The notes under the pieces are model-generated. The model searched no databases. It saw only the letters and a list, made by a program, of their open reading frames with translations, and was not told the DNA's origin. From Beroe forskalii (taxonomy: Eukaryota > Ctenophora > Nuda > Beroida > Beroidae): DNA of 64,000 nucleotides. The position numbers were made by a program, and so were the translations under genes. Where the stretch lies: NCBI GenBank assembly GCA_011033025.1, contig WFMF01000055.1, positions 62,001-126,000 of the forward strand, given 5' to 3'. Positions 51,010 to 64,000 of this stretch are shown here, piece after piece (the first letter of the stretch is position 1; each line of letters opens with the position of its first letter).

Positions 51010-54000
51010 TCAACGATCAATATGTAGAAAATATGTAGTACCAGCATCATTCGTATCATGTTCTGCATTACTTCCATCCCATTCACTAAGATGTCTCTTT
51101 CCCACAAAGGAAACCTCTGCATAAGTACTCTCATCAGTTTTCTCAAATTCATCATTATTGATAGTCTCCAAATCCCCTGTTGTCTGATTCTCTCTGTTCT
51201 CCATGACCATGATATCAGCATATGTTTCCTCCTCACTCTCTTGTGTAGATGCTCTTATTAAGGGCATCCCCCCTTTACTTTGCCGGGTGCCACATTTCTT
51301 GATGTTAGGTTTGTTTAGACGTGAGTATGTGGAACTATCATCGTCGTCTGGGAAAGCATGGACATCATTCAGTGTTGCATAAGCCAAACTATTATCTGGC
51401 TTGTTGCTTTCATTCAGTGTTGCATAAGCCAAACTGTTATCTGGCTTGTTGCTTTCATTCAGTGTTGCATAAGCCAAACTGTTATCTGGCTTGTTGCTTT
51501 CATTTAGTGTTGCATAAGCCAAACTGCTGTGGGGCTTGTCGATTTCATTCAGTGTTGCATAAGCCAAACTGCTTTCAGGTTTCTTTTCGGTGCTGACAAT
51601 TTTCAGTGAACTCAAAGGTTTGGTGCTTTGAGGTAATTTTGGATGACTTTCATCTTTGAGCGGTGGATATTTACTTCTCACAATGGCTAAGTGGACATTT
51701 TTGGCTGAATTTGATTCAACATATCTCTCACTGAATCCTGTACGATTTTGTGAATCTACTTCATGTTTCTCTTCTTTATTCCTCTTTCTCATCAGATAAA
51801 GAGATATGAAGATTCCAATGATTAAAAAACCTGCTGCTCCTGCTATTGATACTGTTACAATCAGTTTATTTTCCTTGTTTTCACAATTGTGTTCAGCCTT
51901 CATGGCCTTGTCATGGCACTGTAATAGTAGCTATTTGACTAAAATAGCTATTTTGGCTGAAGTCATATTACCATGGCCGAAGTTTGTTCCAAAGAAATTA
52001 CGTAATTCCAAATCGGTCAAAACCGCCTGATTTGGGTTTTTAACTTCTGTGTTAAATTACTAACACCTGCCTTCCCTAGAATCTTGTCGGTGTGATAATT
52101 CAGCAGAGCGACGCTAGTGGTAGAGTGAAACGAGGGCGCTGTGCTGACGTGTCAATACGGAGAGCTCATGCGACTGCGATTGGACCACGACTCGAGACTC
52201 GACTACGCGCGCGTCTTATCAGTGGGGAACGACATTGTGTAAGACTGACGTTATTACAAACGTGGGACTAATTAAGCCCTTTAAATATTTGGAGTTAAGA
52301 TTAAGATTACACTTCTTACACTCTTGATTTGGAATCTTTCACAGACTTTCGCAAACAATCTTTATATTGCGTTTTTATAAGAACGTTATATCTGACCGAA
52401 ATACTTTTGTCAGTTTTCAACCTAATTACTTTGGTTAATCTCTCTTTTATTGGTTCGAATACTCGTATCAAATCTGATTCAGAAATTCCGCGAATACCCG
52501 CCTTATTTCAATTGGAGCCTGAATCAAATAACCCGTCCTGGCTGACCAGACCGCGTTATTAGCCCAAATAAAAACCTATTTGGATTCTGCTGGCGAAGCC
52601 AGTGATGAAATCAAACGGGAGATCTTAAAATTGATCTCTCCTCAACCAGCTTCAACAGCACATAACAGTAGCTTGATTGAAGGCCTCAATAACTTGAGGT
52701 TGGTGAACCCAAAATTTCCAAAATTTGAAAAAGGTGACAGTTTCACTCGATACTGCGACAAATTCCAAGAGTATGTGTTACTTACCAACCAGACTCATCC
52801 GAATTTGTACCTGTATTTTCTACAAAACGTAGATGATGAAACTTACGCCAAGTTAAAATTGGTCCATCTAACTGACGCTCAAAAACCTGATGCGGACAGC
52901 TTCTGCCAAGCCTATAAACAGGCTATTTATGGCGAGCAAGTCATTCAGTTAGTCAATGGAGTTAGAGATTGCCTACAACAAGAGCAAGACTCTATTGCTG
53001 ACTACGCTTATAAACTAAGCGAAAAGGCCAGCATTGCCTACACTGATCCTTTGATGGCCGAGCAAGACTGCTTGATGACATTTTTGCGTGGTATCAAAAA
53101 TGTCAACATCAAACGGAAGTTAAATGAATGCCAAACCTTAAATAACTTTAAGGATGCAGTCACTTATGCTAAGCAACTAGAACTAGTTGAAAAACGGTTT
53201 GAAAGTCATGACAATTACCTGTCGACTAAACCCATTTTAAAGGAATCTACGTCATCCTTTAATCAAAGTTCAAACACTGCTGGTGATCGGGAGCATAACC
53301 GCCGTCCCTCTTCACCTCGTCGTCATTCTAGAGATAGGTCTGAAACCCCATATTACAATGGGCATAATTCTAACTATCGTTCTAGAGAGAGATCTGAGTC
53401 ACCATATAACAATGGTAGACACTTGAGATCCGATAGACATCAATCTCCAATTACATGGAGAAATGATTCTCAGAGAAATCGTTCTGGACATTTTCGTGAA
53501 TCACGGAAATGTTACACGTGCAACAAAGTTGGGCATATCAGCTCAAATTGTTGGCACAACCCCCAGAGCGCAAATTTTCGACCATCTCATTACAGAGATC
53601 AAGGTAGAATTGGAAATACTTTCAATGACTACCAGCATTTAAACTAAAAAGTGGTTGTAGACGTTCCAAAAACAAAAATAACATTTTGTATAGCCCTAAT
53701 AGTTTGCAACCAGATCCTAATTCATTGAGCAATCAAGTTATCTTAAACGGGTATTGCCACAGTAGATCCACTAATATCTTATTGGACACTGGTGCATCTG
53801 TTTCCTTAGTTTCCGTTAGATTGGTCGATATTCTAAATCTAAACGATAGAATTCAACCAACTAAAACGCTCATTACAGGGCTAGGAAACAAAATCATACC
53901 CATGAGAGGTCAAATAACTTTGCCTCTTGTCATAGGAAAAATGAAGGAACATCACACCTTCATCGTAACTGATAACATAGATTGCGAATTTTTGATGGGC

Positions 54001-57000
54001 ATGGACCTCATTAAGAAGTTCAAAATGTGTATTAACGTAGCTGACAAAACCGTCATGTTACCTAACAAAAACGTCGTTCCAATTATCAACAGGCCGATTG
54101 TCATTCAAAACCGAATGAAAATCCGTTGTAGCAAAACAGTTACAATTCCTGGGAAAACAGCACTATATTTGAGTGGGAAAATTCCCCTGAGGAATATCAA
54201 AAATGATTATGAAGGCCTCATTGAGCCTTATTACAAGTTAACTAATAACTTAGGACTTGTCATAACTGGTTCATTGTCATATTCAAAACTGAATATAGTA
54301 CCAGTACACTGTATTAATCCCTTTCCTTGGGACATTACCGTCCACAAGAATCAACTGATTGCCTTTATTGAGCCTTATGAAAAACTTCATAACCTCGAGA
54401 AAGTGCATAAAGTTACGAGCTCTACTCATCATAACGATGCATATTACGATGCATCTATTGATATTCCCCGACTAACTTCGGCGGAGCCTGTAGAAGTAAC
54501 TCGTGAGAAGGGAAGATGGAAAAATCCCAATGAGCTCATCCGACAACTACGGATTGATGACATTGAGATTTCTGATTCCAGCAAATCTAAACTGAAGGCT
54601 TTGATTAGAGAATATAGTCATTGCTTTTCACGTGATAGATTTGACTTGGGAACTGCGTCATTCTATGAGGCACGATTACATCTAAAACCAGATTATCGTC
54701 CCAAATGGATTCCAAGTCGTGATCCCTCGAATAAAGTCGAGCGATACATGGATTTTGAAATCGAAAATCTAGAAAAATCCGGCCAAATCGAATATTGTCC
54801 ATATAGTTTATGGAACAATATAGTTTTTGCTGTGGAAAAAGGCAACCCGAACATCAAAACCGATGTTAAGAACTCTGTAGATAACACTACAGGAAGTTCT
54901 ATGAGGTTTGTAGTGGACGCTAGGTCCATTAACTCGGAAATAATCCGAGATCACCACAGTTTGCCAAAAATTAATACCATTTTCGACAAAGTCACGGACT
55001 GCAAATTCTGGTCGAGTTTTGACCTGACTTCCAGCTTCACACAGGTCGGCCTTGAACAGAAAAGTCGCAGCATAACAGCCTTCACTTACAAGGGACGACA
55101 GTATCAGTGGAAGAAGATGATCCAGGGAGCATGCAACTCATCTTCCGAATTTAGCAGAATGATAGGTCAGTTGTTTTCTAAAGTACCCTTTAATAACTTA
55201 TTGTGTTACATTGATGACATACTGATGTCCTCTAATACAGAGGAAGAGCACTTGAAACGGTTGAGATTTATCCTTCAAAGACTTGAATGGGGAAATCTTA
55301 AACTGGGCACAAAGAAAACTCATTTGTTTGCTAAATCAGTGCTATTCTGCGGCTTTAGACTGTCGTCTAAAGGCCTCGAAATTGATGCGAATAAAAAGAA
55401 GGCCATTACCGACCTTCCTTCGCCTAAAAATGTCAAACAAGTGCAGAAATTCCTGGGTATGATTAACTATAACAGGAATTTCATTCCCCAATTTGCTGCC
55501 AAGGCATCTCCTCTCTATAACTTGCTGAGGAAAGATGTCAAATTTAATTGGGATGAGTCGTGTGAAGAAAGCTTCAATAACTTGAAGAGTGCTCTCACTA
55601 CTGCTCCAATACTGGGGTTTGTGGATTACGACGATAAGTATGAGTCCCTAGAGGTCGTCTGTGATAGTAGCAGACTTGGTCATGGAGCAATATTGACTCA
55701 GTTTGATGGCAAACAGCGACGAATAATTTCTTATTTCAGTCAAAGTGTGCCCAAACACCACCAAAAACTTGGTGCTACTAAGCTAGAGACTTTAGGTCTA
55801 CTGGCAGCCTTGAAACACTGGCGTGTATATCTGCACGCTACGAAATTTAAGGTTTTCACAGACTGCAAAGCCCTTTTGAATATAGAAACCATATTCAATA
55901 AGGAGGGCAGTTACATGCAGCGTCGAGTCAGTGAATTAGCTGGTTATAATTTCACGATTCACCATGTATCCGGTGATTCGGAAGAAATTAAAATAGCTGA
56001 TTATTTAAGTAGATACGGACCTTTTAAAACTAAAATGAAGTCCATTTCTACGCAAACTGGCGACCACTTGGATTCTAAACCTGGCAAATTACCTTGTCAG
56101 AAAAAATCCAAGAAAAAAGTGAATTATGTTACGTCTGCTGATGACTCTGCAGATGACTCTGTCTCAAAAAACTCTGATACCGAATCCGACGTCGGAATAA
56201 CCTCCGATGAAGAATTTGATGTCACTAGTTTGCAGAGAATTTTAGTGCAATACAGCACTGAATCACCTCTTAAAACCCCTATTACAAGGGATAGAATAAA
56301 GGATGAATATCAAAACGATAAAATCCTACTAGAGGTAATCGAATGGGTCAAAAATGGCAAGTGTCCAGAGAAATTACATTCTCGTAATTGCCATGAAGAA
56401 CTCTATCACTACTGGAAAAACTTTCAGTTTCTGTCGTATAAAAATGACATTCTCTACATTACTCGTAGAAATGAGGAAGACAAATCACAATCAATTAAAG
56501 TGATTGTTTTGCCATACACTCTTATTCAATGTGTCTTGTATAACTACCATGATACACTGTCTAATTGTCACTCAGGTACTGAAAACTCTCTATCTCAGTG
56601 TCAAAAAACTTACTACTTCTATAAAATGAAGAAAGAGTTTAAACTCTGGATAGAGGCTTGCGAAACATGCTGTAAAACTAAGCCACCACAGGCTTACGGT
56701 AAAGCAGCCATGAAGCCCATTATCTACAGTCATTTCAATCAAGGTATCTGCATAGATCACCTCGAAGTGTCTAAGACTCCGAATACACGGAAAACTGTAG
56801 CGCTACTTGTCATTACCGACATGTTTACTTCGTACCTTGCTTGCATACCAGTGCGCAGTATGACTACTGAAGCAACAATTAAAGCTATTGTTGAGCATTG
56901 GATTCTTAGATTTGGAGTTCCACGTGCTATTCATCACGATTTAGCGCAGAATTTCACAAGTAAACTGTTTACTACAGTTTTAAAACTGTTTGGTATTGAG

Positions 57001-60000
57001 GATAAACCTGGAACTAGCTTTCATTCTCAAACCCAAGGCAAAGTAGAGCGGCAAAACCGTCGACTTAATACTTGTTTCAGAGCCTGCTTGACTGACAAGC
57101 AGTACAAGGATTATGACTTGTATGCTAAATACATAGTATTTGCTCTAAATGCGCTTAAATCATCCAAGACAGGATACAGCGCAAATTTCCTCGTTTTTGG
57201 CCGAGAGCTTACAATGCCTCGTGATTTGTTCGTCAGTAATGACGATAGGCTAGAGAAACTGCGTGTTAATGACGTAACACAGCCAGTTCAAACTCATGCC
57301 TATGATTTGTACACACAGGTGCGTGATATTACTCGCAGAGCCTTGGAAAACACCAAGAGAGCTGCGCAGTATCAGTGTAATAAGTACAATCGCCATGTGA
57401 AGGATATCTCTTTCAATGTGGGAGATTTGTGCTTTTTGCTGTGTAACACTCCAGAGCACAAGTACTCTGAGAGGTGGTCAGGACCGTATAGAATTGTGGA
57501 GAAAATTAGCGACCACAATTACATCATTGATGTAAATGGTACTAATAAGATTGTAAATATTTCAAAACTGAAACTTTACAAGTCTAATAAGTACTCCAAA
57601 ATTCCCATTACAGGGAATTCTATGTCGGACGACTCTAAAAAGTCAAAAATAGAGCCAAAAGAACCTCCTAGAAGGTCCAAAAGAGCGAGCTCAAGCTCGG
57701 ATGACGACATCGAAATAACTTTCGTTAGACGTCCACAGTCTCCAGAGAGTACTCCTACTAATACCAGTAGGGATACTCCCAGAACTCCTGATGCGCAGGG
57801 GAGTGCAACTCGAAGTGATCATAACAGATCGCCTTCGCCTTCTCAGACTCCCATAACCGGAAGTCCTGAAGGATTTGCAACTCCAAGGTCATCTCCAAGC
57901 AGCTCACCAAGGAGCTCAAGAGCTGAAGGATCATCCAATAACATGCATGATTCTCGGGCTGATACTTACAATCAGTCACGTGACGAGGCTGCAGGTCCAA
58001 GCAGCAGGGGAGACAGCACCCCAACACGGTCCATATCGTTACCTGACATTGACAGGTACGCCATCAGCAGAGGGAGAGGTTACGAACCCTCCATCGTGGC
58101 AAGAGACCTCACCAGATCCTCAGGTGTCGGAGAGAACCTGAACACAGATCCGGAGCCGAGATCGAGATACAATCTACGGCCGAGAAAGAAGACCTCGCCA
58201 CTGAAGAGTCTTACAAAAAGGCTTAGAAAACGCTAAGTCATACAGTAAAGTGATAGATCAAGCTATAATTACATATAGCTAAATTAGTATAGCTAAGTTA
58301 GTAGTACCACGTCAGATGTGTCCACTACTCTCGACTATGCCATATTTGACCGCTATTCTTGGTTTTCTATGTATAGGGCCCATAATACATGGTTCACTTA
58401 AGTTTAGTCGGATTAATTTCCCTCTGGCATAATTTTATGCATTTTCTTTCTGAGTAAAATGTGGACATTTTTAGGAAAATGGCGAATACGTGGTTACTAA
58501 TTATCAATTTGCAGGCTGATGCGTTCAGCGATGCTGTGCTAAGAGCACCCTTTAAACACACCTGCACACTTCAGGTTGTTATCAGTGAACACGGCTGTTA
58601 CCATGGTTACCAGCGTGGAAGCTGCAACGAACACTCGTTGGATTTACGGTGTCTTACCCCGTCTCAGTTAAGATGGGTGTAACTCGTAAGAATTATCATA
58701 ATTTTCAGTAATTTCAATACGGAAATTCTGCAGTATTAAACAATCTGATTATCAAATCAGAATGCGGTGATTTGAGAGCAACAATTACTTGTTGCCTCAC
58801 ACCTGTCCTAATTAGGTTTGCAATAACTTACAAACCACGGGGCAATGAGCAGGCATTCACGCCTACTTCTAGCGTGAAGAGAACCTGCCGTTTACAGAGT
58901 CTTATATTACACTTCGAAGCGAGATAACGCCGCTTCATTATTCATTGTTACCGTGCTACTTTTCTCTCGTTAGTGTCTCTGAACACCAATACCGTTGTTC
59001 ATTTGTACACCACCTGAGACAACTGATTACACAGTTGCAAGTACATCACAAATTTATTACTATATTTGTGAGAATAGAACTGAAGTAATCAACTACTTGA
59101 TGACTTCTATTCTATAGTTCTTAAAGTAATCATAACCGATTGCTAATATTCCTCAATAGTTTCATAACTGAACTAGACATCATGGAATAAAGAAAAGTTT
59201 TTCGATAACTCCAAAAACTTTTCTCCTTTCCGTGGGAGGAATTGTAATAGTAGCTATTTGACTAAAATAGCTATTTTGGCTGAAGTCATATTACCATGGC
59301 CGAAGTTTGTTCCAAAGAAATTACGTAATTCCAAATCGGTCAAAACCGCCTGATTTGGGTTTAAACTTCTGTGTTAAATTACTAACACCTGCCTTCCCTA
59401 GAATCTTGTCGGTGTGATAATTCAGCAGAGCGACGCTAGTGGAAGTTAGAGTGAAGTACGAGGGCGCTGTGCTGACGTGTCAATACGGAGAGAGCTCATG
59501 CACGACTGCGATTGGACCACGACTCACGAGACTCGACTACGCGCGTCTTATCAGTGGGGAACGGCATTGTGAAAGAGACTGACGTTATTACAAACGTGGG
59601 ACTAATTAAGCCCTTTAAATATTTGGGAGTTAAGATTAAGATTACACTTCTTACACTCTTGATTTGGAATCTTTCACAGACTTTCTGCAAACAATCTTTA
59701 TATTGCGTTTTTATAAGAACGTTATATCTGACCGAAATACTTTTGTCAGTTTTCAACCTAATTACTTTGGTTAATCTCTCTTTTATTGGTTCGAATACTC
59801 GTATCAAATCTGATTCAGAAATTCCGCGAATACCCGCCTTATTTCAGCACATCTTTTGTCCTGTCTCAGTGCAGTTATAGTTCTCTGTTGGAATGCAGTG
59901 TACTGAGCAATTCTCCCCGAAATATCTTACTGAGCAATTCTTACAGTCTGTGCCTTTCCAGTTATGATAACAAACCTTTTCACCATATTTATCGCATACA

Positions 60001-60975
60001 AACCTACCTTTTTCATCAATGCAATTCACACTACAAATGCCTTCTGGATAATAATTTTTTGCACATTTCATGCAATCAAAGCCAGCCCATCCCTCTTGAC
60101 ACACATCACAGTCCTTTCCTGTCTTGTGTTCAACACATATCAGTTCTCCATCTGAACTACAAGTGTAATTACCTTTTCGTTGACAGTATTTGTCACATGT
60201 ACTTTTGTAGTAGTTATCTGAGCAATAGTTGCAACCTGGTCCTTCGAAATGCAGGTCACATGATATTTTCATCCTTATATCGAGATAACCATTAGGATTG
60301 CTCAACGTGAAACGGTTATTGATCCATGCATTACTGGCTGTGATGTCATTGTAGGGTATTACAAGGTTCAAGTCACGTATATGCTTGCTTTTTGCAGGCA
60401 AACTCAACACATTCCAATTTCTATCCCACACTTCTGTATAAAGCTTTATAGTGTCATTGGTTTTCATTGTGAAGCTGTATTCTGATTCGATTTCTGGTAT
60501 ATCCCTTTCAAAGTTAACTGTATCTCTGTTAGTTGCCTCACCAGTTTTCTTAACATATACCAGCTGAGACCTTGTGGAATCGTATACTTCCAGCTGATAG
60601 AAGTAGAAATCACATACTCCACCGCTGTCACAATTTGTCGTGTCGTGGTATTCTATGAACTTTATGTAGCCAGTCCCAGATTGATGTGATGGTTCCTGAA
60701 AAAGGTCAAATATGATATAATGTATTGTGAAATACTTGAGTTTTACTTTACTAATACACCAGCCTTTTATAATCGAAGCAGCGCTAAGAGTGGTGCAAAG
60801 ACTATTAGTAAGTGTGCCCAATGATGGGTAATATAAATTGTGTTTCCCAATTCCCAACAAAAACCCAGATTCAGTGGTATGGCTTGGATTGAAACTTTAA
60901 TACCCCACTCTTTGTACTAACCAGGAGATGAAGAAGAAGAATGCTACCAACAATCAGCAGTGCATGACCAAACAT
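51010..60975 (-). CDS. DSL (Delta-like)-repeat receptor with ITIM-like tail, copy 1, split by an LTR element
   Basis: Exon 1 (60975-60922) encodes the signal peptide MFGHALLIVGSILLLHLL. Exon 2 (60695-59847, then continuing at 51915-51010) encodes the rest, about 602 aa in total. The order is: an N-terminal domain resembling the C2-like MNNL module of Delta (TGYIKFIEYHDTTNC, CDFYFYQLEVYD); three Cys-rich DSL-like repeats (CDLHFEGPGCNYC, CQEGWAGFDCMKC, HNWKGTDCKNC, YFGENCSVHC); a membrane span (TVSIAGAAGFLIIGIFISLY) and RKRNKEEK; then a tail with five SLAYATLNE-type units plus STYSRL, ETYADI and STYAEV. LAYATL fits the ITIM consensus (I/V/L/S)xYxx(L/I/V). A Ty3/gypsy element sits in the coding exon just outside the membrane. 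Host sequence on both sides is open in one frame. Confidence 0.82.
51916..51919. repeat. Target-site duplication GCAC, left copy
   Basis: GCAC precedes the left LTR and is repeated at 59847-59850 after the right LTR. The paralogue has a single copy (CATGGCACATTTTTTGTCC, about 63871-63889). Confidence 0.85.
51920..52510 (+). repeat. Left LTR
   Basis: 591 bp, TGTAATAG...TTATTTCA. A candidate primer-binding site (TGGAGCCTGAATC) begins two bases after it; the tRNA is not identified. Confidence 0.92.
52580..53647 (+). CDS. gag of the Ty3/gypsy element
   Basis: About 355 codons. An N-terminal capsid-like region (FPKFEKGDSFTRYCDKFQEY) is followed by a Ser/Arg-rich stretch and one CCHC zinc knuckle (CYTCNKVGHISSNC). 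The product packages the element RNA. The true start is not settled. Pol follows after a short spacer in another frame. Confidence 0.85.
   Translation: MDSAGEASDEIKREILKLISPQPASTAHNSSLIEGLNNLRLVNPKFPKFEKGDSFTRYCDKFQEYVLLTNQTHPNLYLYFLQNVDDETYAKLKLVHLTDAQKPDADSFCQAYKQAIYGEQVIQLVNGVRDCLQQEQDSIADYAYKLSEKASIAYTDPLMAEQDCLMTFLRGIKNVNIKRKLNECQTLNNFKDAVTYAKQLELVEKRFESHDNYLSTKPILKESTSSFNQSSNTAGDREHNRRPSSPRRHSRDRSETPYYNGHNSNYRSRERSESPYNNGRHLRSDRHQSPITWRNDSQRNRSGHFRESRKCYTCNKVGHISSNCWHNPQSANFRPSHYRDQGRIGNTFNDYQHLN
53686..58236 (+). CDS. pol of the Ty3/gypsy element (PR-RT-RH-IN)
   Basis: About 1516 codons. In order: aspartic protease (ILLDTGASVSLVS), reverse transcriptase (FVVDARSINS, CYIDDILMSS), RNase H (VVCDSSRLGHGAIL, FTDCKALLNI), and integrase with an HHCC finger and the DDE region (VITDMFTSYLA, HHDLAQNFTSK, HSQTQGKVERQN). 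A GPYRIVEKI motif near the end (GPY/F module) precedes a Ser/Arg-rich tail ending in RYNLRPRKK. The family uses frameshifting or read-through between gag and pol. Fossil element in a host gene. Confidence 0.93.
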   Translation: MYSPNSLQPDPNSLSNQVILNGYCHSRSTNILLDTGASVSLVSVRLVDILNLNDRIQPTKTLITGLGNKIIPMRGQITLPLVIGKMKEHHTFIVTDNIDCEFLMGMDLIKKFKMCINVADKTVMLPNKNVVPIINRPIVIQNRMKIRCSKTVTIPGKTALYLSGKIPLRNIKNDYEGLIEPYYKLTNNLGLVITGSLSYSKLNIVPVHCINPFPWDITVHKNQLIAFIEPYEKLHNLEKVHKVTSSTHHNDAYYDASIDIPRLTSAEPVEVTREKGRWKNPNELIRQLRIDDIEISDSSKSKLKALIREYSHCFSRDRFDLGTASFYEARLHLKPDYRPKWIPSRDPSNKVERYMDFEIENLEKSGQIEYCPYSLWNNIVFAVEKGNPNIKTDVKNSVDNTTGSSMRFVVDARSINSEIIRDHHSLPKINTIFDKVTDCKFWSSFDLTSSFTQVGLEQKSRSITAFTYKGRQYQWKKMIQGACNSSSEFSRMIGQLFSKVPFNNLLCYIDDILMSSNTEEEHLKRLRFILQRLEWGNLKLGTKKTHLFAKSVLFCGFRLSSKGLEIDANKKKAITDLPSPKNVKQVQKFLGMINYNRNFIPQFAAKASPLYNLLRKDVKFNWDESCEESFNNLKSALTTAPILGFVDYDDKYESLEVVCDSSRLGHGAILTQFDGKQRRIISYFSQSVPKHHQKLGATKLETLGLLAALKHWRVYLHATKFKVFTDCKALLNIETIFNKEGSYMQRRVSELAGYNFTIHHVSGDSEEIKIADYLSRYGPFKTKMKSISTQTGDHLDSKPGKLPCQKKSKKKVNYVTSADDSADDSVSKNSDTESDVGITSDEEFDVTSLQRILVQYSTESPLKTPITRDRIKDEYQNDKILLEVIEWVKNGKCPEKLHSRNCHEELYHYWKNFQFLSYKNDILYITRRNEEDKSQSIKVIVLPYTLIQCVLYNYHDTLSNCHSGTENSLSQCQKTYYFYKMKKEFKLWIEACETCCKTKPPQAYGKAAMKPIIYSHFNQGICIDHLEVSKTPNTRKTVALLVITDMFTSYLACIPVRSMTTEATIKAIVEHWILRFGVPRAIHHDLAQNFTSKLFTTVLKLFGIEDKPGTSFHSQTQGKVERQNRRLNTCFRACLTDKQYKDYDLYAKYIVFALNALKSSKTGYSANFLVFGRELTMPRDLFVSNDDRLEKLRVNDVTQPVQTHAYDLYTQVRDITRRALENTKRAAQYQCNKYNRHVKDISFNVGDLCFLLCNTPEHKYSERWSGPYRIVEKISDHNYIIDVNGTNKIVNISKLKLYKSNKYSKIPITGNSMSDDSKKSKIEPKEPPRRSKRASSSSDDDIEITFVRRPQSPESTPTNTSRDTPRTPDAQGSATRSDHNRSPSPSQTPITGSPEGFATPRSSPSSSPRSSRAEGSSNNMHDSRADTYNQSRDEAAGPSSRGDSTPTRSISLPDIDRYAISRGRGYEPSIVARDLTRSSGVGENLNTDPEPRSRYNLRPRKKTSPLKSLTKRLRKR
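58237..59242 (+). other. 3' spacer of the LTR element with polypurine tract
   Basis: 1 kb between pol and the right LTR, with no supported gene. CGTGGGAGGAAT directly before the LTR is the likely polypurine tract. Confidence 0.6.
59243..59846 (+). repeat. Right LTR
   Basis: 604 bp. It is the same sequence as the left LTR apart from few, mostly short, differences. Confidence 0.92.
59847..59850. repeat. Target-site duplication GCAC, right copy
   Basis: See 51916-51919; host coding resumes here. Confidence 0.85.
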
Positions 60976-62562
60976 CAAAATATCAAAGTGCAAACATACG
61001 ACTGTAGTAAATTAGTAAGAAGTTTATTGAGTGGAAATACCAACGGTTCTAGACTGCTTGACTGAGTGGCGTCACAGTTACACACTTCATAAAAAACAAA
61101 GTAGGGTTTTGAGTAGCCGACGTAATGGAAAGGAATTGTACACTGTTATACAAAATAAGTATTATTATACGTACGAATAGGCAGGTATTTTTATCGGGGT
61201 TAATAAGTAGAAGGTTTTATGTTATGGCATTTCAGATCTGGTTTCAGGAGATAAGAGAGATTAAGAGTTTTTGAAGTCTTGTGAATCGCATTTATTAAGT
61301 TATTAAGCTTTTGCTTTCGAAGTACTATGAATCACTCGTTCAGACTACAGGTACGCTCTGTATCTTCACTTCGATAAACTGGTGCATGTGTGTGTATGTG
61401 CATGTGTTTGTTAACTGTAATTGTCCTGGTGCCCAATTGAAGTTCCCTCCTAATCCTTCCCCTAAAAACACCCTTTCCAAAGTGCACACCCCACATCACC
61501 CCACTTCAATTTGCGTAATATAAGAATATATTTCTACACAGTGATAAGACAACATAATATATAGTCTCTAAAATGTCATTTAAACAACCAGCACAGTTGA
61601 ATTTAAGTTCACCCTTTCCAAAGTGTTAAGTGCACATCTCAACAGTACATCACCTTACTTCAGATTGCGTAAGCTATTTCTACACAGTGATAAGACAAGA
61701 TATTAATTATAGTCTTTTGAAAGTTATTAAAACAACCAGCACAGTGGTATGCAAATTCACCCTTACCAAATCAGTACATCAACCCACTTCAAATTGCGTA
61801 CATAAGCTATTTCTACACAGTGATAATACAAATTTATTGCTTAAATTTGGGGGTCAGTAGGGGGTCAGTAGGGGGTCAGTAAGGTTCACCAGGGGGTCAC
61901 CAGGGGTTCACCAGGGGGTCAGTAGGGGGTCAGCAGGGGGTCAAAAGGGGTCAGCAGGGGTCAGTAGGGGGTCAGTAGGGGTTCACCAGGGGGGTCACCA
62001 GGGGTCAGTTCACCAGGGGTCAGTAGGGGTCAGTAGGGGGTCAAAGGGGGCTCAGTAGGGGGTCAGCTGGGGGTCAGTAGGGGGTCAGCAGGGGGTCATT
62101 GGTATACTTTCATACGACCGATTTTTCTCCCTGATATTTAAGTGATTCTACAATAATTCGTAACTCAGTTCTTTTTGAGAATAGGAAAGTCGAAATTAAG
62201 AAATCAGTTTTACAATTCAACACACCTTAATTATCAGCTCTAGCAGTTTATTAGCATAACGTCATGTGAGGTAATTAAATTGTATGCAATAATTCATCTT
62301 CATTCAATCATTCATGTTCTAAAAGTCTAAACATGATAAACCGTTTAGTGCTAGAAAAATGTCAACTGTAATTGAAATAATCAGCCTAAAATGTTCTTTT
62401 ATCGTTGCTTATAAAGTAACGAAGCAAAACTTGATTTTATTGTGCCTTGCACAATCAGCCTATTTCAATAACTATGATAATTGGAGATTATTATTTACTG
62501 ATTTGAAAATCGAATGCAGAGAAATAGTAATCAAAGTAAGAAATTATGAAATTTCAATGCAT
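60976..62562. other. Intergenic between the two DSL receptor genes, with repeats
   Basis: No gene. A diverged direct repeat of about 120-150 bp (AAGCTATTTCTACACAGTGA with CACCCTTTCCAAAGTG) occurs three times at about 61440-61830. An 11-12 bp minisatellite follows, listed separately. Confidence 0.55.
61851..62100. repeat. Minisatellite, GGGGGTCAGTA unit
   Basis: About 20 copies of AGGGGGTCAGT, with AGGGGTTCACC variants interspersed. Confidence 0.93.
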
Positions 62563-64000
62563 TCAATGTTCTTTAAAGTCTTGTATTGTCACATAATCCG
62601 GACCATCTACCTCCTCATTTTCAGTCAATTTCTCGCCGTGTGTTTCCACTCCTTCGCATGTGGTGTCAAGGACGCGTTTTCCCACGAAATGAAGCGTTGC
62701 ATAAGTTCCCTCCTCCCCCTCTTCAGGAATTTCCTCATCACTTAAAGACTGGGTATCCTCTGTTTTAACCTCGTTTCCTAGTGTCAGTGAATCCTCGTAA
62801 GTATGTTCCTCAGGATCTTCTACCCTCCTCGTATCTTCCGGATTCTCAGCCCCATCCTTTTCCTGTCCAGGTATTGGTTTTGGTACACAATTCTTCCTTT
62901 TCTGCGACTTGCATTTGTTATCCCTCCTATTGAGACGAGCATACGTTAGGTTATCTTCATCACAATTCAAGACACTATCATTCAACGTGGCGTATGTCAT
63001 GTCTGATTCATTAGTTGGAAGACCTTGAGATGTGTCCTCTGAACCTCAGGAAATGTACTGCATACCTTTTGTTCGCATTGTTGGCTAAAGTCATGTACTG
63101 GTCTGCATTTCCCTTGGCACTGTCTGTTGTTTGTTTCTCCACACTCGGACCTTTGTTGGAATTAGTTTTTCCATGAGATGGCCTTATTATTTTGGAGTAG
63201 ATTACATCTGCGCTTTCTTCAGAATTATCTCCCAGGCTGGCACCGTGTTGGTCTTCTTTTTCAGGGAAGGATTTCACAGGACAGCATTTCTCATCAACAG
63301 CAGCAAAGGTTCCATCGATGGCACCAAACTCACAATAAGCACCGTCATCATCATCGATAAGTTCAGCACCCAATTCCTTCGAAATGTCTTGAGGAACTGG
63401 AACCTGCTCATTTCCCCTAGCACTGTCTGTTGTTTGCATCTCCACACATGGACCTTTGTTGGGATTAGCTTTCCCATGAGATGGCCTTATTATTTTGGAG
63501 TAGATTACATCTGCGCTTTCTTCAGAATCTCTCTGGCTGGCACTGTGTCGGTCTTCTTTTTCAGGGAAGCATTTCTCAGGAAAGCATTTCTCATCAGCAG
63601 AAGTTTTAAAGATGGGAACAAACTCACAATAAGCACCGTCATCATCTTCGATAAGTTCAACACCCAATTCCCTGGAAACCTCTTGGGGAACTGAAGCCTC
63701 CTCTTTCACGATCCTTTTTCGGCATCTCATGAACACCAGAAGTGCTGTTATCAAAACGAGTACCCCAGCCCCAGCCCCTGCCCCAACTAACACTCCTTTG
63801 TTTGATGTTCTTACAGTCTGGCTGTGACTAACTTCTACACAATTGTCTTCGACCACTTTCATGGCCTGGTCATGGCACATTTTTTGTCCTGTCTCAGTGC
63901 AGTTATATTTGTCTGTTGCAATGCATTGTACTGTGCAATTCTCCCCAAAATATCCTACTGAACAGTCCTTACAATCTGTACCATTCCAGTTGTCATTGCA
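62563..64000 (-). CDS. DSL-repeat receptor with ITIM-like tail, copy 2 (N-terminus outside window)
   Basis: From the window edge inward: a DSL-like repeat (WNGTDCKDCSVGYFGENCTV, CTETGQKMCHDQAMK), a membrane span (VLVGAGAGAGVLVLITALLV) and RCRKR, then a tail with two tandem copies of about 110 residues, each holding GAYCEF and SADVIYSKIIRPSHGK. After these come YMTL, TYATLND, LTYARLN, GTYATLHFVGKR and PDYVTI. VIYSKI and TYATL fit ITIM-like consensus. The stretches 63880-63011 and 63000-62563 are in different frames: near 63030-63050 a one-base shift, or an unrecognised splice, is needed to join KRYAVHFL to SEDTSQGLPTNESD. FVGKR and the YATLN motifs are shared with copy 1, which shows common descent. 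Confidence 0.8.

Follow-up and report, generated by a model that had tools for sequence, protein, structure and literature searches.

Does a locus in the ctenophore Beroe forskalii encode surface receptors that join the head of a Notch ligand to a tail of inhibitory-type tyrosine motifs? The locus occupies positions 51,010 to 64,000 of a 64,000-nucleotide (nt) stretch, here called the window, taken from contig WFMF01000055.1 (C636 below; assembly GCA_011033025.1, positions 62,001 to 126,000 of the forward strand). The original prediction, made from the sequence alone, described two tandem genes with Delta-like (DSL) extracellular repeats and tails rich in immunoreceptor tyrosine-based inhibitory motifs (ITIMs). 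The architecture is real and unusual, and it is a property of a family rather than of the two window copies. On sequence evidence, we give a probability of about 0.6 to the reading that the genes with such tails belong to a paired-receptor-like family with Notch-ligand heads and, within it, are the ones that recruit SHP2.

Copy 1, which lies on the minus strand, has the predicted order of an N-terminal domain (C2 or MNNL-like, 60261 to 60665), three DSL repeats (59847 to 60260), and a single membrane span. Pfam DSL matched in three stretches with 52.2 bits against a cut-off of 24.2 (E value [E] of 7.1e-14); the borders of the repeats were taken from a local hidden Markov model. The N-terminal domain was assigned from profile matches to Notch ligands and from an AlphaFold2 model. 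Pfam MNNL matched none of the four pieces and none of the eleven proteins scanned, and it gave 0 matches across the genome, where the control was likewise silent. However, a profile of the N-terminal domain plus the first DSL repeat (A3, 13 sequences) ranked solved Notch ligands as the top 5 of the 15 matches listed from the Protein Data Bank (PDB), at E values of 3.4e-4 to 1.4e-3. These include Jagged-1 (3.4e-4), Drosophila Delta (4.8e-4), and Jagged-2 (1.1e-3), and because of this ranking the description of the domain as MNNL-like is supported. A3 was built from 13 of the 21 candidates, leaving out C479, both C710 sequences, C333, C779_30k, C358, C2, and P0018.

Among the lower-ranked matches of A3 are C2 domains of PKC, which are weak (E of 0.44 and worse); the Pfam C2 family (PF00168) matched the homologue P0018 below its cut-off (E of 0.0052). 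In the best AlphaFold2 model (mean predicted local distance difference test [pLDDT] score of 78.4, predicted template modeling score of 0.60; the other four models had 60.5 to 66.8), the N-terminal domain is mostly strand, with block pLDDT values mostly of 81 to 93 and a dip to 60 near residues 91 to 100, and the repeat region is poorer. Aspartates D8, D19, and D29 of A3 are conserved at 90% or more, and D81 is invariant. They sit where the calcium loops of C2 domains typically have them, and they may bind calcium or lipid. A longer profile, A1, matched a sodium-channel beta subunit in the PDB (E of 4e-5); this match rests on the span and a basic stretch and was rejected. The next match was Jagged-2 (E of 0.0018).

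A head that is homologous to Jagged and Delta in its C2-DSL part could belong to a divergent Notch ligand, which would bind Notch in trans and use its tail tyrosines as endocytic sorting signals. Exons coding for LNR, as in Notch, were found on two contigs (4 matches; C269:164911-167892 and C657:33717-33989), and the tails hold YxxPhi motifs. Yet behind the first DSL come further DSL and laminin-type EGF matches, the latter partly above the Pfam cut-off, and no plain EGF family was listed in the Pfam scans of pieces and proteins, apart from a weak match at one edge of copy 2 (given below). The family is also large, its tails are swapped, and 11 of the 16 long-tail entries have at least three matches to the tail motif TY[ASTV]x[LIV], seemingly beyond what sorting would need. 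We consider this explanation improbable.

Head and tail are parts of one protein. Two paralogues on contig C998 each encode the C2 domain, DSL repeats, span, and tail in a single open frame. The first (663 amino acids [aa]) has three LAYATLN units and shares its distal tail with copy 1. The second is 946 aa long in the examined stretch and 1,063 aa by genome scan, and it has nine matches to the ITIM pattern. Homologue searches returned 17 proteins with the 663-aa query and 21 with a profile, and those having both a span and a tail keep the same order. They include ACHWQZ_G002203 and G002204 of Mnemiopsis (consecutive tags) and P0012 of Bolinopsis; the 3 of 21 that are assigned to an organism are all from ctenophores and none from a sponge. 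The Mnemiopsis 1,362-aa model (of the pair P0018, which is G002204, and P0010, which is G002203) resembles tandem receptor units fused by annotation, and for this reason a tandem cluster probably exists in Mnemiopsis too.

In copy 1 itself, the DSL repeats are separated from the transmembrane span (51793 to 51867, from the translation and the hydropathy of the near-identical C998 spans) by a long terminal repeat (LTR) retrotransposon within the coding exon (51920 to 59846, plus strand). It was recognized from its LTRs, its target site duplication (TSD), Pfam matches, and an uninterrupted counterpart of copy 1 on C998. An ordinary intron between head and tail is excluded by the TSD (GCAC at 51916 to 51919 and 59847 to 59850), the TG...CA ends, and the C998 counterpart, and it is also contradicted by copy 2, which is contiguous at the same place. 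The flanks join in the C998 counterpart with a four-base overlap (L013, 7834 to 7837), which matches the expectation for a target duplication.

Could the two window copies be pseudogenes of a decaying cluster, and the tail motifs relics of repeat expansion? The retrotransposon in copy 1, two frame changes in copy 2, and the broken reading frame in the head of the C998 counterpart are consistent with decay. Against it stand paralogues that carry this tail and are intact in a single frame, and the conservation of the tail sites as far as Mnemiopsis. In addition, the ratio of nonsynonymous to synonymous substitution rates was 0.13 to 0.84 and thus below 1 in all 11 pairwise comparisons. The same values gave no sign of positive selection and do not support the fast divergence that the original prediction had ascribed to the tails. 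Decay may apply to the two window copies but not to the family, and as an explanation of the tail motifs it seems quite unlikely.

The tail of copy 1 (51010 to 51792, stop codon at 51010 to 51012) is about 260 residues long and has the eight ITIM-type motifs that had been counted. Five of these, however, are copies of one unit, LAYATLN, which occurs once in each of the five units of a tandem 45-nt repeat (51365 to 51589, from the repeat listing). We defined the ITIM pattern as [STILV]xYxx[LIV] and tested it against shuffled tails in 19 tail entries. Copy 1 had 8 sites versus 0.52 in the shuffles, and 4 versus 0.32 (P = 0.0004) with the repeat collapsed to one unit, so the motifs are not random. 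The conserved element of the sites is the tyrosine and its +3 residue. The narrower pattern TY[ASTV]x[LIV] reached a P value below 0.05 in 18 of the 19 entries, the exception being the first tail part of copy 2. The tail sites are conserved: an alignment with ten homologues shows that the 663-aa protein, Mnemiopsis, and others have in common EExxYxxI, TYAxVSFV, and a final Y. With copy 2 counted once, 14 of 15 long tails contain Y-x-x-[LV]-x-F, and none of 3 short tails does. The only long tail without it was that of C998_946, which was available in part. A match to Pfam SIT, an SHP2-interacting adaptor, was discarded as noise (E of 0.26 to 5.9).

The hydrophobic +3 residue and the +5 Phe of these sites agree with hallmarks described for the N-terminal SH2 domain (N-SH2) of human SHP2, which include I, L, or V at −2, His at −1, a hydrophobic residue at +3, and F or H at +5 (PMC10369915); the human preference is a guide only. 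A putative SHP2-type phosphatase gene is present in the genome. At C358:1533958-1537343, SH2 and PTP exon matches follow each other in the order of a tandem-SH2 phosphatase of the SHP2 type. The best match of its N-SH2 piece was PTPN11 (E of 1e-26), and the piece spanning the junction of C-SH2 and PTP matched PTPN11 at 3.9e-17 and PTPN6 at 2.1e-10. There were 35 SH2 matches in the genome, and two places were inspected. At C824, a frame with two SH2 domains is followed by frames that we read by eye as PLC-gamma.

Tyrosine-signaling tails on single-pass proteins are also found in the engulfment receptors CED-1, Draper, and MEGF10, whose heads are EGF-type, with laminin-EGF-like repeats and an N-terminal EMI domain. 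If the family here were of that kind, the C2 head or the repeats would bind phospholipid on dying cells, and YxxL would act as an immunoreceptor tyrosine-based activation motif (ITAM) for a Syk-type kinase. The source name of P0012 is "cell death abnormality protein 1-like," the laminin-EGF-like repeats fit, and so would the C2 matches of P0018 and A3, weak as these are. The first two LAYATLN units of copy 1 are 11 residues apart, inside the 6-to-12-residue ITAM window, a spacing that 4 of the 19 tail entries show. In contrast, EMI was not listed in the Pfam scans of the four pieces and eleven proteins, and the C2-DSL head stands in its place. NPxY was found in 0 of the 19 tail entries, and only one of the six host tail entries, C998_946, has the strict ITAM spacing of 6 to 8 residues. 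Syk was not identified at the two SH2 places inspected, and no search was aimed at Src or Syk kinases. The many ITIM-type sites and the swapped tails are further differences. We regard an engulfment receptor as unlikely, less so than a Notch ligand or a decaying cluster.

The search for further copies showed how large the family is. At least 83 DSL matches, in 39 clusters on 28 contigs, were found in the genome (150 of 189 candidates scored; clusters grouped at 1,500 bases). Five genes were found to carry ITIM-rich tails; two of them lie on C636 and the other three on C998. In three tail searches for ITIM tails on other types of head, matches with an E value below 1e-3 lay on C636 and C998, plus one on C1047 (9.3e-4, with 7 internal stops), and weaker candidates at C1047, C1024, and C614 had E values of 5e-3 to 6e-3.

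Other members of the family have tails of other classes. In eleven non-ITIM-class tails, a set that excludes very short or absent ones (e.g., C355, C531, C413, C710, C333, and C291), there were 0 ITIMs versus 1.2 expected, and none of the tails set aside has an ITIM. The eleven tails had 7 YxN sites versus 1.65 expected; the P value of 0.0025 overstates the evidence because the tails are homologous and not independent. YxxM was not significantly enriched in them (3 versus 1.4; P = 0.15). A further class of tail on DSL heads (C779 and C736, L011 and L028) has YVNM/YVNA-like sites, which presumably resemble dual GRB2/PI3K motifs. On C172 (L012), a tandem pair of short-tail genes has YEIM/YELM replacing the YENV/YENA/YKNA/YKNP of other short tails.

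Shuffling of heads and tails is established by several comparisons. In a quick tree of the heads (32 rows: 21 host genes plus 11 of 21 homologues, with C172_148k and five of 27 genes excluded), the 4 heads with ITIM tails did not form a clade (approximately unbiased test, P = 8e-68). Head identities were compared in 20 of 27 genes, 7 being outside the extraction pattern. The head of copy 2 is 85% identical to that of C998_9k (tail not known) and 79% to that of the short-tail gene C172_154k, versus 44 to 47% to the other three ITIM heads. Homologous proteins, possibly of more than one species, repeat the pattern. The head of long-tailed P0006 is 79 to 80% identical to those of short-tailed P0005 and P0004, 57 to 59% to those of long-tailed P0001 and P0002, and 69 to 72% to those of long-tailed P0008 and P0003; its tail is 66 to 74% identical to the tails of P0001, P0002, P0008, and P0003. 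P0004 has no ITIM match. Thus, one tail block is common to different heads, and similar heads occur on ITIM and ITIM-less tails, which fits the earlier suggestion of a receptor for contact recognition.

The comparison of copy 1 with the 663-aa gene on C998 (C998_663) suggests how tails may be exchanged. DNA identity is 76% in the C2 piece, 82% in the first DSL, 93 to 95% from the last DSLs through the span, and 90 to 94% in the tail; in the 3' flank it is down to 73%. Synonymous divergence is 0.51 for the head but 0.08 for the tail. In this pattern the tail block bears the signature of exchange or gene conversion.

If the reading that we favor is correct, the ctenophore has a multigene family of single-pass surface receptors whose C2-DSL head and further DSL or laminin-EGF repeats would contact a neighboring cell, an exposed membrane, or Notch. 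On engagement, Src-type kinases would phosphorylate the tandem YxxL/I/V tyrosines of one tail class. We infer that the phosphotyrosines would recruit the tandem-SH2 phosphatase of the SHP2 type and so damp signaling. As happens among paired receptors, members with similar heads and short ITIM-less tails might send the opposite signal or none, or serve as decoys. It is possible, and we propose it only tentatively, that the family as a whole is a ctenophore paired system of inhibitory and noninhibitory members, with C2-DSL heads, SHP2 signaling, and reshuffling by gene conversion, and that it is an independent or ancestral counterpart of the vertebrate paired immune receptors.

A number of observations weigh against SHP2 recruitment or against pairing. 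YxxPhi motifs double as endocytic sorting signals of the AP-2 type. The −2 residue is frequently E, M, or C, and for this reason the full ITIM pattern was enriched (P < 0.05) in only 8 of the 19 tail entries; those lacking enrichment include P0001, P0003, P0006, P0010, P0011, P0013, P0014, and the second part of copy 2. Extended ITAM spacing (6 to 12) was found in 4 of the 19 entries, copy 1 among them. Ala is usual at +1 in the tail sites, and it was not favored there in a library screen of the human SHP2 N-SH2 domain; in a PD-1 peptide, the same domain favored Ala or Thr replacing Gly, according to the same report (PMC10369915). In the C358 gene, a TAG occurs in three of the five PTP exon matches, perhaps at exon edges. 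The non-ITIM tails have at best weak candidates for activating motifs, no adaptor-recruiting charged residue was found in the 8 membrane spans examined, and none of the eleven tails lies on C636 or C998. Short-tailed P0005 has one ITIM match, and the models of P0012 and P0020 lack a membrane span. Finally, both window copies look disrupted as assembled because of the retrotransposon in copy 1 and the two frame changes in copy 2.

How does the family compare with known systems? Like Delta and Jagged, its members have a C2 (MNNL) domain directly before DSL, cysteine-rich repeats, and one span. They differ in that tandem DSL/laminin-EGF repeats stand where Delta and Jagged have EGF repeats, the tail is long and has conserved ITIM-type sites, the family is large and its tails fall into several classes, and Pfam MNNL does not match; MNNL plus DSL has been graded as "strong" evidence for Delta (PMC6040629). 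The vertebrate paired receptors CD300A and CD300C are described as joining similar heads to tails with and without ITIMs, and their genes as undergoing exchange (PMC12447643). The family here shares this arrangement; it differs in its C2-DSL head instead of an immunoglobulin (Ig) head, in a tail block common to unlike heads, and in the lack of a charged residue in the 8 spans examined. Delta1 to Delta5 of the sponge Amphimedon are also DSL ligands, and their divergent tails have predicted SH2 and PTB sites, but they are five genes with EGF repeats (none in Delta4), and the predictions are given without significance (PMC3482393). A "Delta-like" receptor tyrosine kinase of Capsaspora likewise places DSL domains ahead of tyrosine signaling; it has its own kinase, and the account of it there does not describe an ITIM tail (PMC4810162).

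Two contrasts drawn in the original prediction are weakened by these precedents. ITIM receptors were said to use Ig or lectin heads, whereas Draper-II, of the Megf10/Draper/CED-1 engulfment family, is reported to use an ITIM for binding Corkscrew, the orthologue of SHP2 (PMC8092387). Canonical Notch ligands were said to have tails without such motifs, whereas motif software marked ITIM, ITSM (immunoreceptor tyrosine-based switch motif), and SH-PTP2 sites in the human ligand tails (PMC1965462) and SH2 sites, explicitly without significance, in the sponge Delta tails (PMC3482393).

Searches of the open-access literature, outside which most subscription papers lie, turned up no ctenophore family that combines such a head and tail with tail swapping. 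A 2016 review states that diagnostic Delta domains are absent from Mnemiopsis and that a Delta orthologue is present in another ctenophore, Pleurobrachia (PMC4810162). The main text of a 2025 paper on the Mnemiopsis immune repertoire contains no words starting with DSL, Delta, Notch, ITIM, or tyrosine (PMC11797021). Nevertheless, DSL heads are plentiful in this genome and are present in proteins of Mnemiopsis and Bolinopsis. The family looks like a system of paired receptors that has gone unrecognized in an animal lineage of great age. ITIM-bearing and paired receptors are a known kind; the unexpected part is the Notch-ligand-type head. Provided that SHP2 is recruited by the tails, a lineage that is perhaps sister to all other animals would possess tyrosine-based inhibitory receptors whose tails are swapped, these receptors would use a head common to Notch ligands, and the age of ITIM signaling and of paired recognition would become directly testable.

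The remaining parts of the locus are as follows. Exon 1 of copy 1 (60922 to 60975, minus strand, read by eye) encodes 18 residues up to a GT donor in phase 0; by our own reading of the sequence it is short and hydrophobic, a predicted signal peptide. Intron 1 (60696 to 60921, minus strand) runs from GT to TTTTCAG, with splice signals judged by eye. The retrotransposon is young. Its LTRs (51920 to 52510 and 59243 to 59846, plus strand) start with TG, end with CA, and align over 607 columns with 3 mismatches and 10 gap openings. It encodes a gag with a zinc knuckle and has Pfam matches to protease, reverse transcriptase, RNase H, and integrase; the gag and pol frames are long and open, and the element is antisense to copy 1. 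The counterpart gene on C998 is 93 to 98% identical to copy 1 in seven pieces. This identity would fit C998 as a haplotype of C636, but the gene order differs, and the counterpart may be an allele or a duplicate.

Copy 2 shares the layout of copy 1 in part: it has a DSL repeat, a span, and an ITIM-type tail, but it lies partly outside the window and is read in three overlapping frames down to 62566. Its last DSL, its transmembrane span (about 63734 to 63790), and the first part of its tail lie at 63014 to 64000 on the minus strand, and its head extends past the window to a start at or beyond C636:127291. The second part of the tail, in a different frame (62566 to 63045, minus strand), contains MTYATLN, LTYARLN, GTYATLHF, and PDYVTI, and is homologous to the tail of copy 1 (37% over residues 13 to 127). 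The apparent frame changes may be two frameshifts or assembly errors, or else an unrecognized short intron. At an 11-residue edge of copy 2, Pfam EGF_Teneurin matched weakly, below its cut-off (E of 0.01). Between the two copies, at 61849 to 62115, there is a minisatellite of the GGGGGTCAGTA type, with a unit of about 11 bp and 16 overlapping copies listed. Elsewhere in the genome, 13 matches to innexin coding exons were found, and one innexin has a relative in Bolinopsis.

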